NCBI GenBank assembly: GCA_040902765.1
Contig: JBBDWO010000002.1
Span: 124,001 to 188,000, forward strand
Origin: Acidimicrobiia bacterium
GTDB lineage: Bacteria > Actinomycetota > Acidimicrobiia > Spongiisociales > UBA11373
Length of the DNA stretch: 64,000 nt
Direction: 5' to 3'
Shown here: positions 9,129 to 60,868 of the stretch, piece after piece
How positions within the stretch are numbered: the stretch's first letter is position 1
How the letters are laid out: the number at the start of each line of letters is the position of its first letter
Translations under genes and position numbers: made by a program
The notes under the pieces: model-generated
Told to the model about the DNA's origin: nothing
The model's input: only the letters and a program-made list of their open reading frames with translations
Database searches by the model: none

Positions 9129-10061
9129 GTGCCTGCGCCACGCGTGGCCCTCATCATCAACGAGCACGCCGGACGGGGCCGGATTGCCCGTCAGATTCCT
9201 GTAGTCGCCAACGCACTCCGGGCGCACGACATCGAGCCGACGATCCTGCCGACCCGAGGACCCCTCGACGCCATGCGACTGGCACGCCAGGCGGCCGAGG
9301 AGCGTTTCTCCACTGTCGTCGCCGTCGGTGGCGACGGCACGGTCAACGAAGTGGCCAACGGTCTGATGGCAGGGCCCGGGGACAGACCGAGCCTCGGTAT
9401 GGTCGCCGCCGGTTCAGGCTGCGACTTTGCAAGGAGCTTCGGTCTCCCCAAGCGGTTCGACGGCAGCCTCCGCGGTATCGTCGGTCCAACGGTGTCCATC
9501 GACGTGGGACGGATCGAGTGCCAGGGACCAGACGGATCCATCGTCCGTCACTTCGTCAACGTGGCGGGGGCCGGGATGGCCGCAGCGACGGCGGGCCTGG
9601 CTGCCCGGCTTCCGCGGTGGGTAGGACGAGCCCGGTATCTGCTCGCCTTCTGGCCGACGCTCGCTTCCTATCGGCCCACGGCGATCACCGTGGCCGTCGC
9701 CGGGGAAGTCCATAGCGGAGTGGCGCACAACGCTCTGGTCGCCAACGGGAGGTATTTCGGCGGTGGCATGCTCATCTCGCCCCACTCCGACCCCGGCGAT
9801 GGGCTCTTCGACGTCCAGGTGAGCATCGGGCCGAAGCGGCAGGCGTTGACGCTCATCCCCCGCATCTACCGCGGATCCCACTTACCGAACCGACGGATCG
9901 TCCAGTTCGAAGGCGACCATGTGACCATCGCATCCGACTCACCGATCCCGGTCGAAGCCGACGGCGAGCCGGTGGGATCGACCCCGGCGACCTTCACGAT
10001 CGTGCCCGGAGCCCTCGACGTCGTCAGCGCATCTTCAGACGCTTGCGCTCACCCTCGGTGA
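9129..10061 (+). CDS. Diacylglycerol kinase-family lipid kinase
   Basis: 310 aa from GTG 9129. A longer frame from 9057 would overlap the divergent gene, and the family N-terminus fits VALIINEHAGRGRI. The DAGK catalytic signature VVAVGGDGTVNEVANGLM lies near residue 60, followed by GSGCDFARSFG (the GTGND-type motif, here GSGCD) and GGGMLISPHSDPGDGLFDV. The family phosphorylates diacylglycerol, sphingoid bases or related lipids at the membrane. The last 38 bp overlap the opposing typA gene. The change of GTGND to GSGCD is seen in part of the family, so activity remains likely. Confidence 0.9.
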   Translation: MPAPRVALIINEHAGRGRIARQIPVVANALRAHDIEPTILPTRGPLDAMRLARQAAEERFSTVVAVGGDGTVNEVANGLMAGPGDRPSLGMVAAGSGCDFARSFGLPKRFDGSLRGIVGPTVSIDVGRIECQGPDGSIVRHFVNVAGAGMAAATAGLAARLPRWVGRARYLLAFWPTLASYRPTAITVAVAGEVHSGVAHNALVANGRYFGGGMLISPHSDPGDGLFDVQVSIGPKRQALTLIPRIYRGSHLPNRRIVQFEGDHVTIASDSPIPVEADGEPVGSTPATFTIVPGALDVVSASSDACAHPR

Positions 10062-11847
10062 GATGCCGCTTCCGGATTCGGATCGACTCCGGCGTGATCT
10101 CGACGAGCTCGTCGTCCTGGATCCACTCGATCGCCATTTCCAATGTCATCCGCCTCGGAGGCTCCAGGTGAACGGCCTCGTCATGACTGTGAGTGCGGAT
10201 GTTGGTCAGCTGCTTGGCCTTGGTGGGGTTGACCTGCATCTCCTCGGGCCGCGACGACTCGCCGATCACCATGCCCTCGTAGACCTCGTCTCCCGGTCCG
10301 ATGAACAGCTCACCACGCTTCTGCAGGTTGTCGAGGGCATGCGGCGTCGCCGCCCCACCCCGATCGGCCACCACCGCCCCACCCTGTCGGGTGGGGAGTT
10401 CTCCGACCCACGGGACCCAGCCGTCGTGATGCTGGTGGACGAGCGCCGTGCCCCGGGTGGACGTCATGAGTAGCGATCGAAACCCGAGCAGCCCCCGCGC
10501 CGGCGCGGTGACGGTGACGATGGTGCGACCCGTGTCGCCCGGCCGGAGATCGACGACCTGACCCCTGCGGGGCGCCACCGCCTGAGTGACCGCTCCGACG
10601 TACTCGTCGGGCACGTCGACGACGGCCCGCTCGAAGGGCTCGTGAGGCGCGCCGCCTATCTCACGGATGATCACCTCGGGCCGACTCACCTGGAGCTCGT
10701 ACCCCTCACGACGCATCGACTCGATGAGGACCGCTAGCTGCAGTTCTCCCCTTCCGGCCACCTCCATCACGTCGGCGCTCGCCGTTGGCCCCAGGCGGAT
10801 CGACACGTTGCCGAGGACCTCGCGTCGCAGGCGGTCCTGGATCTGACGGGAGGTGAGGAACTTGCCGTCCTTGCCGGACAGAGGTGAGGTGTTGACCCCG
10901 AAAGTCATGCGAAGCACCGGTTCGTCGATCTCCAGGCGGGGAAGGGCGACCGGGTTATCGGGATCGGCGATGGTGTCGCCGATCTCCACCTCGGGAAAAC
11001 CAGCGAGCACGAAGAGGTCGCCGGCAGCGCGCTCGGGCACGTCGCGGCGATCGAGCCCCACAAACCCGAGCAACTGCGTGAGCTTGCGGCGCAGCGGTGG
11101 CTCGTCCTCGGAGGCGTGACACAGGGCGACGGTCTCACCAGAGCGCATCGTCCCGCTCACCACCCGTCCGATGGCGAGACGGCCAAGGTAGTCGGAGGCA
11201 TCGAGGTTGGTCACCAGTGCCTGGAGGGAGGCGTCCGGGTCGCCCGCAGGTGCCGGAATGCCGGAGAGGATCGCATCGAACAACGCACCGAGGTCGTCGC
11301 CGTCCCCGGGCACCCCGATTCCAGTGATACTCCGACCCACCCGGGCGATCGTGGACACGATGGGGAACTCGATGAAACGGTCGGCTGCATCGAGGTCGAA
11401 GAACAGTTGGTACACCTCGTCGACCACCTCGGTGGCCCGAGCATCGGGTCGGTCGACCTTGTTGACCACGAGGACGGCAGGAAGCCCGAGAGCCAAGGCC
11501 TTCGACAGCACGTACCGGGTCTGTGGCATCGGCCCTTCGGCTGCGTCGACGAGGAGGAGGATCCCGTCGACCATGGCGAGGGCCCGCTCGACCTCGCCGC
11601 CGAAGTCGGCGTGACCGGGTGTGTCCACGAGGTTGATACGGGTTCCCTGCCACTCCACCGACGCGGCCTTGGCCAGGATGGTGATGCCACGCTCGCGTTC
11701 CTGATCGCCGCTGTCCATGACGCGGTCAACCCGCTCCTCGTGGGAGGCGAACACGCCACCAGCGCCGAGCATGGCGTCGACCAGGGTCGTCTTACCGTGA
11801 TCGACGTGCGCGACCAGCGCGACGTTGCGGAGGGGGAGTTCAGGCAC
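10024..11847 (-). CDS. typA: Translational GTPase TypA/BipA
   Basis: 607 aa, the normal length. GTPase motifs are AHVDHGKTTLVDAML (G1), the RGITI switch I region, DTPGHADFGGEVERAL (G3) and VVNKVDRPDA (G4). EF-G-like domains III and V follow, then the TypA-specific C-terminus with RTHSHDEAVHLEPPRRMTLE and a basic end IRKRHLTEGERKRLKM. TypA binds ribosomes and helps 50S assembly and stress adaptation. It reads away from the heliorhodopsin gene across a 107-bp spacer holding a 7-bp tandem array. Its 3' end overlaps the lipid-kinase gene by 38 bp. Confidence 0.96.
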   Translation of the reverse strand: MPELPLRNVALVAHVDHGKTTLVDAMLGAGGVFASHEERVDRVMDSGDQERERGITILAKAASVEWQGTRINLVDTPGHADFGGEVERALAMVDGILLLVDAAEGPMPQTRYVLSKALALGLPAVLVVNKVDRPDARATEVVDEVYQLFFDLDAADRFIEFPIVSTIARVGRSITGIGVPGDGDDLGALFDAILSGIPAPAGDPDASLQALVTNLDASDYLGRLAIGRVVSGTMRSGETVALCHASEDEPPLRRKLTQLLGFVGLDRRDVPERAAGDLFVLAGFPEVEIGDTIADPDNPVALPRLEIDEPVLRMTFGVNTSPLSGKDGKFLTSRQIQDRLRREVLGNVSIRLGPTASADVMEVAGRGELQLAVLIESMRREGYELQVSRPEVIIREIGGAPHEPFERAVVDVPDEYVGAVTQAVAPRRGQVVDLRPGDTGRTIVTVTAPARGLLGFRSLLMTSTRGTALVHQHHDGWVPWVGELPTRQGGAVVADRGGAATPHALDNLQKRGELFIGPGDEVYEGMVIGESSRPEEMQVNPTKAKQLTNIRTHSHDEAVHLEPPRRMTLEMAIEWIQDDELVEITPESIRIRKRHLTEGERKRLKMR

Positions 11848-11869
11848 GGAGCGCGCGATGGTACAAGAG

Positions 11870-11904
11870 GGCTATCGGCTACCAGCTACCAGCTACCAGC
11901 TACC
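11870..11904. repeat. Heptamer tandem array, unit agctacc (x5)
   Basis: Five consecutive 7-bp units: ggctatc, ggctacc, then agctacc three times. The array lies in the divergent spacer between typA and the heliorhodopsin gene. The same strict 7-bp period occurs at many other intergenic sites in the window. Confidence 0.9.
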
Positions 11905-11954
11905 AGCCAGAGCCCAGCAGCCGGGTGACCATCGGTCGGCGGTACCGTTCGCTC

Positions 11955-12716
11955 ATGACTTCCGCCGCCAGGCCCACCCCTGACCGCCTGCGTCTCACCA
12001 ACATCGCCCTGGCCATCCTCCATGCGGCTCAGGCTGTCGTGGTCGTCGCCCTGGCCAACGACTTCGCTCTCCCGGTCACTGCAACCTTCATGGATGGACC
12101 TCCCGGTGGTCCGCCTCCCGCCCTCTCGAGCCTGTTCGAGGTCCGGGTCGCATGGGGGGTCGCTGCATTCCTGCTCATGTCGGCCGCGGCGCACGCCACC
12201 ATCGCCCTTCCCGGGGTGAACGGCTGGTACCGCCGGCACCTTGCCCAGGGTCGCAACTACGCGCGCTGGATCGAGTACTCGTTCAGCTCGACCGTCATGA
12301 TCGTGCTCATCGCGATGATCACTGGCATCACCGACGTGGCAGCACTGGTCGGACTGGCCGGCGCCAACGCCGCCATGATCCTCTTCGGCCTGATCCAGGA
12401 GCGCTACGAGACGCCCGGGGCACCCAGCTGGCTCCCCTTCGGCCTCGGTTCGCTGATCGGCGTGCTCCCTTGGGTCGCCATCGGGGTGTACCTGTTCGCC
12501 CCGGGCGTCGACGCCAGCCCACCGGGGTTCGTGTACGCGATCTACGTCTCGCTGTTCGCCTTCTTCAACGTGTTCGCCTTGAACATGGTCCTGCAGTACC
12601 GCGCCCGCGGGAGGTGGGCCGACTACCTGTTCGGCGAGCGGGTCTACATGCTCCTGAGCCTCACGGCCAAGTCGGCGCTCGCCTGGCAGGTCTTCGCCAG
12701 CACCCTCGCCGTCTGA
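11955..12716 (+). CDS. Heliorhodopsin
   Basis: 253 aa, seven hydrophobic helices. From memory of the founding protein 48C12, long stretches match: ALANDFALP, RWIEYSFSSTVMIVLIA, NAAMILFGLIQE and SLTAKSALAWQVFASTL. Retinal would attach to Lys239 in the last helix, with Glu107 as Schiff-base counterion and His23 and His80 in the retinal-side cavity. Starting at ATG 11955 puts His23, His80 and Glu107 at the same numbers as in 48C12, which supports this start over GTG 11925. Heliorhodopsins sit inverted in the membrane and have slow photocycles; most show no ion pumping. No retinal-synthesis gene is nearby. Confidence 0.96.
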   Translation: MTSAARPTPDRLRLTNIALAILHAAQAVVVVALANDFALPVTATFMDGPPGGPPPALSSLFEVRVAWGVAAFLLMSAAAHATIALPGVNGWYRRHLAQGRNYARWIEYSFSSTVMIVLIAMITGITDVAALVGLAGANAAMILFGLIQERYETPGAPSWLPFGLGSLIGVLPWVAIGVYLFAPGVDASPPGFVYAIYVSLFAFFNVFALNMVLQYRARGRWADYLFGERVYMLLSLTAKSALAWQVFASTLAV

Positions 12717-12779: not shown

Positions 12780-13295
12780 ATGACAGGCATCCGCCGCCTG
12801 AACCATGCCGTCCTGTTCGTCTCGGACCTCGACCGGGCCGTCGCCTTCTACACGGACGTGCTCGGCTTCGGGGTGATGGAGCGACTCGAGGGGCGCATGA
12901 ACGCTGCCTTCCTGCGCGCCGCGGACTCGCAGAACCATCACGATCTCGGACTCTTCGGCCTCGGCGCGGGCACGCCCCGAGCGCCCCGTGGGACGACGGG
13001 CCTGTACCACCTGGCGTGGCAGGTGGACACCATCGATCAGCTCGTGACCATCCGCGACGCTCTCATCGCGTCGGGAGCGTTCACCGGTGAGTCGTCGCAC
13101 GGCGCCACCTTGAGCCTCTACGGGGCCGACCCCGACGGCAACGAGTTCGAGGTGCAATGGATGCTGCCGCGCGACGCATGGGGCGAGTACGCCACCAAGG
13201 GAGTGGTGGAACACCTCGACCTCACCGCCGAGGTGGCCAGGTGGACCGGGGTGGGAACCGCCGACGAGCTGGGGGCCCCGGTCCGGGTCGACTGA
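12780..13295 (+). CDS. VOC (glyoxalase/dioxygenase fold) protein
   Basis: 171 aa with two VOC modules: LNHAVLFVSDLDRAVAFYTD at the N-terminus and LYHLAWQVDTIDQLVTIRD in the second half, then SLYGADPDGNEFEVQW. The potential metal ligands His (LNHAV), His (YHLAW) and Glu (EFEVQW) are present, as in catechol 2,3-dioxygenase-like members. The start is preceded by GAGAGG at a normal distance. It follows the heliorhodopsin gene by 63 bp on the same strand, but a functional link is not shown. The substrate is unknown. Confidence 0.88.
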   Translation: MTGIRRLNHAVLFVSDLDRAVAFYTDVLGFGVMERLEGRMNAAFLRAADSQNHHDLGLFGLGAGTPRAPRGTTGLYHLAWQVDTIDQLVTIRDALIASGAFTGESSHGATLSLYGADPDGNEFEVQWMLPRDAWGEYATKGVVEHLDLTAEVARWTGVGTADELGAPVRVD

Positions 13296-13346: not shown

Positions 13347-14390
13347 ATGGACGACAAGATCGACCTGCGCTCAGACACCGTCACCGTCCCGTCCGTGGCG
13401 ATGCGGCGCGCCATGGCTGAGGCCGAGGTGGGTGACGACCAGTACGGCGAGGACCCCTCTGTCATCCGCCTCCAGGATGAGACCGCCGATGTCCTGGGAA
13501 CGGAGGCGGCGCTCTTTCTTCCTTCGGGGACGATGACCAACCAGGTGGCGCTGCGCACGCTGACTCGGCCGGGCGACGACGTGTTGGTGCCGACAGAACC
13601 GCACATCGTCATGCACGAGACGGGCGCAGCCGCCGCCAATGCCGGCGTTCAGTTCACCACCGTGGGAAGCGGCGGCACCTACACCGCCGACCAGGTGCGG
13701 GAGGCGATCAAGCCCGCCGGCCACATCGTGTATCCGCCGACGACGCTGCTCGTTGCCGAGAACACCCACAACCGGGCGGGTGGAATCGTGTTCCCGGAGG
13801 ACCTGCTCGGCGCTGCGGTGGGCGTGGCCCGGGAGCACGGGCTGGCCACCTACTTGGACGGGGCACGCATCCTCAACGCGGCGGTGGCGTCTGGAGTCGA
13901 ACCGGCGCGGCTCACCCGAGGGTTCGACCTGATCGGCATGTCGCTGTCGAAGGGCCTCGGCGCGCCGGTCGGCTCGATGCTCGCCGGGTCGAAGGAGCTC
14001 ATCGGGATGGCCCACCGATACCGCCGGATGGCAGGTGGGGCGATGCGCCAGGCGGGCATCATTGCCGCCGCAGGGTCGTACGCCCTGGCCAACAACGTGG
14101 CCCGGCTCGCCGAGGATCACGCCAATGCGCGGCTCATCGCCGAGGTGCTGGCGGAGAGCGACCACATCGCCCTGGACCTTTCCACCGTCCAGACCAACAT
14201 CATCGTGTTCTCCCTCGCCGACGAGTCGGAAGTGCCCGACGCCGCAACCTTCGTCGAGCGGTGTGGGGAGCGCGGCGTGCTGGTGAGTGCGTTCGGGCGA
14301 CGGGTGGTTCGGGCGGTCACCCACCTGAACGTCGATGCCGAGGAGTGCCTGCGGGCGGCCGATGCGATGCGCCGAGCCGCGGCCAGTTGA
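13347..14390 (+). CDS. ltaE: Low-specificity threonine aldolase
   Basis: 347 aa fold-type I PLP enzyme. The N-terminal DLRSDTVTVPS and GDDQYGEDP are hallmarks of the family, ENTHNRAGG and LDGARILNA follow, and the PLP lysine is Lys202 in MSLSKGLGAPVGSML. It should split L-threonine and L-allo-threonine into glycine and acetaldehyde. The gene stands between the VOC protein and the DUF393 gene on the same strand. All expected active-site residues are visible. Confidence 0.94.
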   Translation: MDDKIDLRSDTVTVPSVAMRRAMAEAEVGDDQYGEDPSVIRLQDETADVLGTEAALFLPSGTMTNQVALRTLTRPGDDVLVPTEPHIVMHETGAAAANAGVQFTTVGSGGTYTADQVREAIKPAGHIVYPPTTLLVAENTHNRAGGIVFPEDLLGAAVGVAREHGLATYLDGARILNAAVASGVEPARLTRGFDLIGMSLSKGLGAPVGSMLAGSKELIGMAHRYRRMAGGAMRQAGIIAAAGSYALANNVARLAEDHANARLIAEVLAESDHIALDLSTVQTNIIVFSLADESEVPDAATFVERCGERGVLVSAFGRRVVRAVTHLNVDAEECLRAADAMRRAAAS

Positions 14391-14433
14391 AACCCGGCGC
14401 CGTCGCATTCGGAACGACTCCTATCGTGGGCTG

Positions 14434-14838
14434 GTGAACCGCAGCAATCGTCACACGGTTCTGTACGACGCCTCCTGCCCGCTGTGCGGCCGCAGCCGTC
14501 GCGGCATCCAGCGTCTCGACTGGCTCCGCCGCTTCCGCTTCGTCGACGCCAACGACCACGAGGCGGCGGCCGGGCTGGTGCCAGGAGCAACCCATGACGA
14601 CCTCCTCGAACGGATGCACCTCGTCCGATCCGACGGAACGGTCTTCACCGGGTTCGAGGCGTTCCGTGCCATGGCACCGTCGCTGCCGTTGGCGTGGCCG
14701 TTGGTGCCGTTGCTCTGGATCCCCGGTGTCCGATGGCTCGGAGAGAGGATCTACGACCGGATCGCCCGCAACCGCTATCGCTTCGGATCGTGCCCCAACG
14801 ACTCGTGCCGGGCCAAGCGATCGGGTGGCGTGTTGTGA
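14434..14838 (+). CDS. DUF393 (DCC family) thiol-disulfide oxidoreductase-like protein
   Basis: 134 aa from GTG 14434. The longer frame from 14335 would overlap the aldolase gene. The family signature D-x-x-C-x-x-C appears as YDASCPLCGRSRRG near the N-terminus. A second conserved patch, HLVRSDGTVFTGFEAFRAM, is followed by a hydrophobic helix (LPLAWPLVPLLWIPGVRWLG) and a basic C-terminus with RFGSCPNDSC. Members are small thioredoxin-fold-like proteins of uncertain partner. The stop overlaps the GTG of the next (truncated) gene, suggesting they were once coupled. Confidence 0.85.
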   Translation: MNRSNRHTVLYDASCPLCGRSRRGIQRLDWLRRFRFVDANDHEAAAGLVPGATHDDLLERMHLVRSDGTVFTGFEAFRAMAPSLPLAWPLVPLLWIPGVRWLGERIYDRIARNRYRFGSCPNDSCRAKRSGGVL

Positions 14839-25591: not shown

Positions 25592-25656
25592 ACGCTCAAC
25601 GCTCAACGCCTAACGCAAGACCGATCCCGCGTTGAGCGTTGAGCGTTGAGCGTTCT
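25592..25656. repeat. Palindrome of heptamer repeats beside tRNA-Ser(GCT)
   Basis: The left arm is built from acgctca, acgctca, acgccta, acgc. The right arm is gcgttga three times then gcgt. The two 25-bp arms pair with two mismatches around a 12-nt loop. It lies 3 bp from the 3' end of tRNA-Ser(GCT), so it could act as its terminator. A near-identical element is at 33937-33994. Confidence 0.88.
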
Positions 25657-32974: not shown

Positions 32975-32995
32975 GCTGCCAGCTGCCAGCTGCCA
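32975..32995. repeat. Heptamer tandem array, unit gctgcca (x3)
   Basis: Three perfect units between mrpA and tRNA-Ser(TGA). The following 20 bp (GCAGAACGGAGGCGCCG...) recur after the matching array at 33164, as part of a local duplication. Confidence 0.88.
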
Positions 32996-33037
32996 GCAGA
33001 ACGGAGGCGCCGCTCTGCGGCACCGCAGTTCTGTTTG

Positions 33038-45642: not shown

Positions 45643-45646
45643 GAGC

Positions 45647-45667
45647 GCAATTCGCAATTCGCAATTC
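45647..45667. repeat. Heptamer tandem array, unit gcaattc (x3)
   Basis: Three perfect gcaattc units directly after the crgA stop, an AT-rich unit in GC-rich surroundings. Confidence 0.85.
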
Positions 45668-45693
45668 GCAGGAGGCGCAATCCTCGCCCCTCG

Positions 45694-56767: not shown

Positions 56768-56822
56768 CAAGTACCAAGTACCCGCGTCTTCTCTGGCTGT
56801 TAGCTGTTAGCTGTTAGCTGTC
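56768..56822. repeat. Heptamer tandem arrays, units caagtac (x2) and agctgtt (x4)
   Basis: caagtac twice (56768-56781), a 13-bp gap, then ggctgtt, agctgtt, agctgtt, agctgtc (56795-56822). They end 50 bp before the small gene at 56872. Confidence 0.85.
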
Positions 56823-60833: not shown

Positions 60834-60865
60834 CTACTCGTCCCTCGCTACTCGCTACTCGCTAC

Positions 60866-60868
<3 letters not shown>
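60834..60868. repeat. Heptamer tandem array filling the gyrB-gyrA spacer (x5)
   Basis: Units ctactcg, tccctcg, ctactcg, ctactcg, ctactca, running from 3 bp upstream of the gyrA start into the gyrB stop codon. On the message this is the agtagcg unit, and its GAGGG is the only ribosome-site-like sequence before the gyrA GTG. Confidence 0.92.

Follow-up and report, generated by a model that had tools for sequence, protein, structure and literature searches.

In the founding heliorhodopsin (HeR), 48C12, the proton stays close to E107 without being moved across the membrane; this glutamate is essential, whereas mutation of H23 or H80 leaves the spectrum unchanged (PMC6951262). The partners reported for other HeRs are glutamine synthetase (AbHeR), a photolyase (TfHeR) and an ABC transporter (OcHeR, with OmrDE) (PMC9529153, PMC9769723, PMC11109279), and the positively charged intracellular loops of AbHeR and OcHeR bind these partners (PMC9529153, PMC11109279). 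In the class Acidimicrobiia, HeRs of the order UBA5794 are present in only some of the genomes and their neighbours vary, with emphasis on kinase-type ATPases, regulators, transporters and photolyases (PMC12008989). In 'Ca. Actinomarinales', HeRs occur in genomes without retinal synthesis genes, at a locus fixed between two nuo operons, and together with a type-1 rhodopsin (PMC7771536).

In this study, we analysed a HeR gene from an uncultured member of the Acidimicrobiia. The window, that is, the whole stretch of 64,000 nucleotides under analysis, corresponds to bases 124001-188000 of a 211-kb contig, within an assembly of 1.99 Mb that is 97% complete and comprises 35 contigs. The locus is organized as follows.

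10024..11847, minus strand: typA/bipA translational GTPase (TIGR01394, 820 bits), divergent from the HeR gene; adjacency not conserved
11848..11954: divergent typA-HeR intergenic region, 107 bp; no sigma-70-like site found
11878..11907: perfect heptanucleotide tandem array (GCTACCA)4.3, inside the typA-HeR intergenic region
11955..12716, plus strand: heliorhodopsin, 253 aa, assigned by profile, alignment, model and residues (H23, Q26, S76, H80, N101, R104, counterion E107, S111, N138, E149 and S235xxxK239, with K239 as the Schiff-base lysine)
12780..13295, plus strand: VOC-superfamily protein, 171 aa, extradiol-dioxygenase-like, with a candidate metal triad H9/H77/E124; 63 bp downstream of the HeR gene
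13347..14390, plus strand: GntG-family PLP-dependent aldolase (threonine-aldolase-like), 51 bp after the VOC gene
14335..14838, plus strand: DCC1-like thiol-disulfide oxidoreductase, the end of the co-directional gene run examined

The product of the open reading frame at 11955-12716 is a genuine and ordinary heliorhodopsin by every test available. The frame starts with ATG; 10 codons further upstream, at 11925, there is an in-frame GTG. The Pfam Heliorhodopsin profile PF18761 aligns over all of its 242 positions (1-242) with 314 bits against a cut-off of 26.7 (E 6.3e-94), and the NCBIfam equivalog model NF038020 gives 302 bits against a cut-off of 100. Hence, a profile search that might have assigned the protein to another seven-helix family places it among the heliorhodopsins, far above the cut-off. 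At a threshold of 1e-3, its only sequence relatives in the PDB are heliorhodopsins. The predicted model (pLDDT 87, pTM 0.82) shows seven helices and an A-B hairpin, and all of its ten top-ranking structural matches are heliorhodopsins, with query-normalised TM scores of 0.90-0.92 for 48C12 (PDB 6su3, 6su4, 6uh3) and 0.88-0.89 for TaHeR; the type-1 rhodopsins listed reach at most 0.66.

The active site agrees with this assignment. H23, H80, E107 and K239 are found exactly where the preliminary description had placed them, aligned with H23, H80, E107 and K241 of 48C12, and S76 and S235 (S237 in 48C12) are likewise shared. The SxxxK motif of helix 7 (S235-K239) and E107 of helix 3 are invariant across 82 aligned heliorhodopsins, and of the 71 alignment columns with 90% conservation or more, the window protein deviates in none. 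As evidence, these residues are not equivalent: given the mutants of 48C12 described above, E107 carries weight, whereas the two histidines are weaker markers. The two proteins are also alike in that neither carries a domain fusion. Their sequence identity is 49%, so that the description of the window protein as close to the founding heliorhodopsin holds only approximately: its nearest relatives are 60-66% identical, and the 66% matches come from other Actinomycetota and from Chloroflexota. Arginines occur in the N-terminus and in the B-C and F-G loops, the two loops being arginine-rich (R93, R94 and R100; R216, R218 and R220). As read from the sequence and the model, this distribution agrees with the positive-inside rule, and under an inverted topology the arginine-bearing loops would be on the cytoplasmic side. 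In this respect the protein would resemble AbHeR, TfHeR and OcHeR, whose positive cytoplasmic loops are of the partner-binding kind.

The array in the typA-HeR intergenic region has counterparts elsewhere. Further perfect 7-bp tandem arrays lie in the window at 25629-25654, 32975-32997, 45646-45670, 56796-56821 and 60844-60867. Altogether, 236 kb of this genome hold 36 heptamer arrays of at least three copies, built from many different unit sequences, and a single array of any other period between 4 and 30 bp; all but three of the heptamer arrays lie outside coding-like ORFs. We counted 12 heptamer arrays in 242 kb from family relatives and six in 1.17 Mb from 80 other HeR loci, four of these six in L035, a member of the family. 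Heptamer repeats have also been described in other bacteria, where they are mostly intergenic (PMC4679880).

The flanking genes had been correctly recognized, with typA upstream on the opposite strand and the VOC gene downstream. The view that they form a core-genome setting, with conserved and hence informative neighbours, did not withstand comparison with related genomes. TypA is indeed core, being present in all 14 genomes of the GTDB family, whereas HeR is patchy, with matches above the family cut-off in 9 of these 14 genomes and in 53 of the 138 genomes of the order. Only four genomes of the order carry a HeR match and TypA on the same contig, a count partly limited by the many short contigs of these assemblies; the two genes are adjacent in this genome and separated by about 30 kb (G116), 45 kb (G033) and 510 kb (G001) in the other three. 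We also compared all ORFs lying up to 4 kb from each of 117 HeR genes; some loci are represented twice in this set, and 100 of the 117 are flanked by 1 kb or more on each side. TypA adjoins HeR in this genome only. The nearest other cases are a TypA gene 4 kb away (L080) and, at 0.7 kb, a more distantly related translational GTPase (about 700 aa; probably EF-G; L129). A conserved typA-HeR neighbourhood was thus rejected.

The genes that do recur around these 117 loci encode SDR/NmrA-type oxidoreductases, ABC transporters, photolyases, TerC and 2-hydroxyacid dehydrogenases, several of which have already been published beside HeRs (PMC11109279, PMC12008989). The window HeR has neighbours outside these groups, with no adjacent histidine kinase and none of the ten operon partners described in the literature. 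It therefore differs from the AbHeR, TfHeR and OcHeR pairs, from the UBA5794 loci, in place of whose neighbours it has typA and the VOC gene, and from 'Ca. Actinomarinales', since this genome has neither the placement between nuo operons nor a type-1 rhodopsin. Because the neighbours are not conserved, they say little about HeR function.

The unique position next to typA raises the question of how the gene arrived there. Horizontal transfer within Actinomycetota, a proposal about origin and not about function, is plausible, and we regard it as a tentative reading. In the tree, the window HeR groups with two HeRs from other loci, L019 and L024 (95/85), apart from the clade of four family relatives (100/99). 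However, a topology that unites it with these four relatives remains acceptable under the AU test (p 0.351), and both the GC content and the third-position GC of the gene match those of its neighbours, so that transfer cannot be taken as proven by the tree. Moreover, gene order around typA is poorly kept across the family anyway, which weakens the argument from position.

Given the same strand and gaps of 63 and 51 bp, co-transcription of the HeR, VOC, aldolase and DCC1 genes is possible. It could further be proposed that HeR and the VOC gene, maybe with the aldolase and DCC1 genes, form a unit through which a detoxification or redox operon comes under light control, along the lines proposed for clusters of HeR, glyoxalase and glutaredoxin genes in other Actinobacteria. 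Glyoxalase_2 and glutaredoxin genes have been reported beside HeRs by Bulzu et al. (PMC8612252), and L019 and L024, the loci of the closest HeRs in the tree, are the only others among the 117 where a VOC homologue lies at most 4 kb away. This coincidence is a weak lead: in both loci the VOC gene lies 2.2 kb upstream and is only weakly similar (E ~1e-5), and the two are near-identical and count as one case. A conserved HeR-VOC pair is consequently not supported. In addition, the HeR-glyoxalase linkage published by Bulzu et al. was defined by a distance below 10 bp on the same strand, whereas here the distance is 63 bp. The best matches of the VOC protein are extradiol dioxygenase models, and its assignment as a glyoxalase I was discarded at 28.6 bits against a cut-off of 120. 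A VOC homologue 52% identical to that of the window also stands beside typA where HeR is absent: in the relative G009 (L140: 8358-10679, contig C15), typA is followed by this gene in tail-to-tail orientation. Taken together, a light-regulated unit of this kind is unlikely. The promoter and terminator scan at the HeR locus found nothing, and such a scan is uninformative in a high-GC actinobacterium.

A second line of evidence concerns the supply of retinal. The preliminary description had seen no retinal-forming gene around the HeR, and this holds genome-wide. Searches for the brp/blh and crt genes, run as BCD, CrtB and CrtI, found none: there is no match to BCD/Brp/Blh in this genome (97% complete) nor in any of the 138 genomes of the order, and within the 14 family genomes searched, this genome has no match to phytoene synthase CrtB nor, at 1e-20, to a CrtI-family desaturase. 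An RPE65-type oxygenase was found neither in this genome nor across the 14 genomes of the family. Control genomes were positive in the RPE65, SQS_PSY and CrtI searches. The first controls of the BCD search gave no match; when it was repeated on 24 genomes, of which 23 were other HeR-bearing genomes, matches were obtained in two (those of L036 and L084), which indicates that the search works on Actinomycetota. With 35 contigs at 97% completeness, a missing gene could sit in a gap. A phytoene-synthase match was found in two HeR-bearing family members, G012 and G013. No type-1 rhodopsin was matched in this genome, where HeR is the sole rhodopsin found. Elsewhere in the order, ten of the 138 genomes have a type-1 rhodopsin and no detectable Brp/Blh (G013, G029, G068-G071, G074, G095, G098 and G115); two of these ten correspond to L118 and L119.

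The gene content thus suggests that the cell is unable to make retinal by any known route, and for this reason uptake from other organisms is most likely. Such a situation has precedents besides 'Ca. Actinomarinales'. A functional rhodopsin is possible in bacteria that lack blh, either with retinal supplied to them or by way of an unknown synthesis: the rhodopsin of Rhodoluna lacicola is active once retinal is supplied, and Aurantimicrobium minutum produces retinal in the absence of any known gene for it (PMC7734400).

It could be argued that a HeR in such a cell is made but remains free of chromophore, or has a role independent of retinal; the lack of any known route to retinal or beta-carotene in the genome and the patchy presence of HeR across the order are in line with this reading. 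However, K239, E107 and all strongly conserved columns are intact at 60-66% identity to the nearest relatives, which would be difficult to account for if retinal binding were not under selection. Intact copies are moreover spread over an order whose searched genomes gave no Brp/Blh match. We therefore consider a chromophore-free or retinal-independent HeR improbable.

The case of A. minutum means that uptake is not the sole possibility, and an undescribed enzyme route might supply retinal to the HeRs of this order. The proposal is based on the count of 53 HeR-bearing genomes against none with Brp/Blh among the 138, and on a family in which no RPE65-type enzyme was found; we give it a small probability.

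We favour, as the likely reading, a regulatory HeR in which K239 carries the retinal Schiff base with E107 as counterion, and which passes a light signal to a cytoplasmic partner by means of retinal acquired externally. By analogy with the characterized HeRs, the protein would be an inverted seven-helix membrane protein with its N-terminus in the cytoplasm. All-trans retinal would be bound to K239 through a protonated Schiff base, E107 serving as the counterion. Illumination would isomerize the retinal, and the Schiff-base proton would leave yet stay inside the protein, near E107. A slow conformational change would then be read out at the arginine-rich cytoplasmic face by a partner protein. 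The family membership, the active-site residues, the unconserved neighbours and the lack of retinal genes among those searched are observations on this gene and its genome, as is the fold at the level of a predicted model; retinal binding, the photocycle, a signalling role and the uptake of retinal from other organisms would follow by analogy. Light-driven proton transport is very improbable: one viral member with the heliorhodopsin fold, V2HeR3 of a giant virus, carries protons (PMC9448325), whereas the active-site residues of the window HeR are those of 48C12, which does not pump and lacks the proton donor and release groups of bacteriorhodopsin (PMC6951262).

In summary, this gene adds one more member to the large heliorhodopsin family. 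Its neighbourhood is unusable for guessing its function. On the other hand, it provides a clean case: HeR is the sole rhodopsin found, the genome has no known route to retinal or to its carotenoid precursor, and the absence of Brp/Blh from the searched genomes of the order points to retinal obtained from other organisms.
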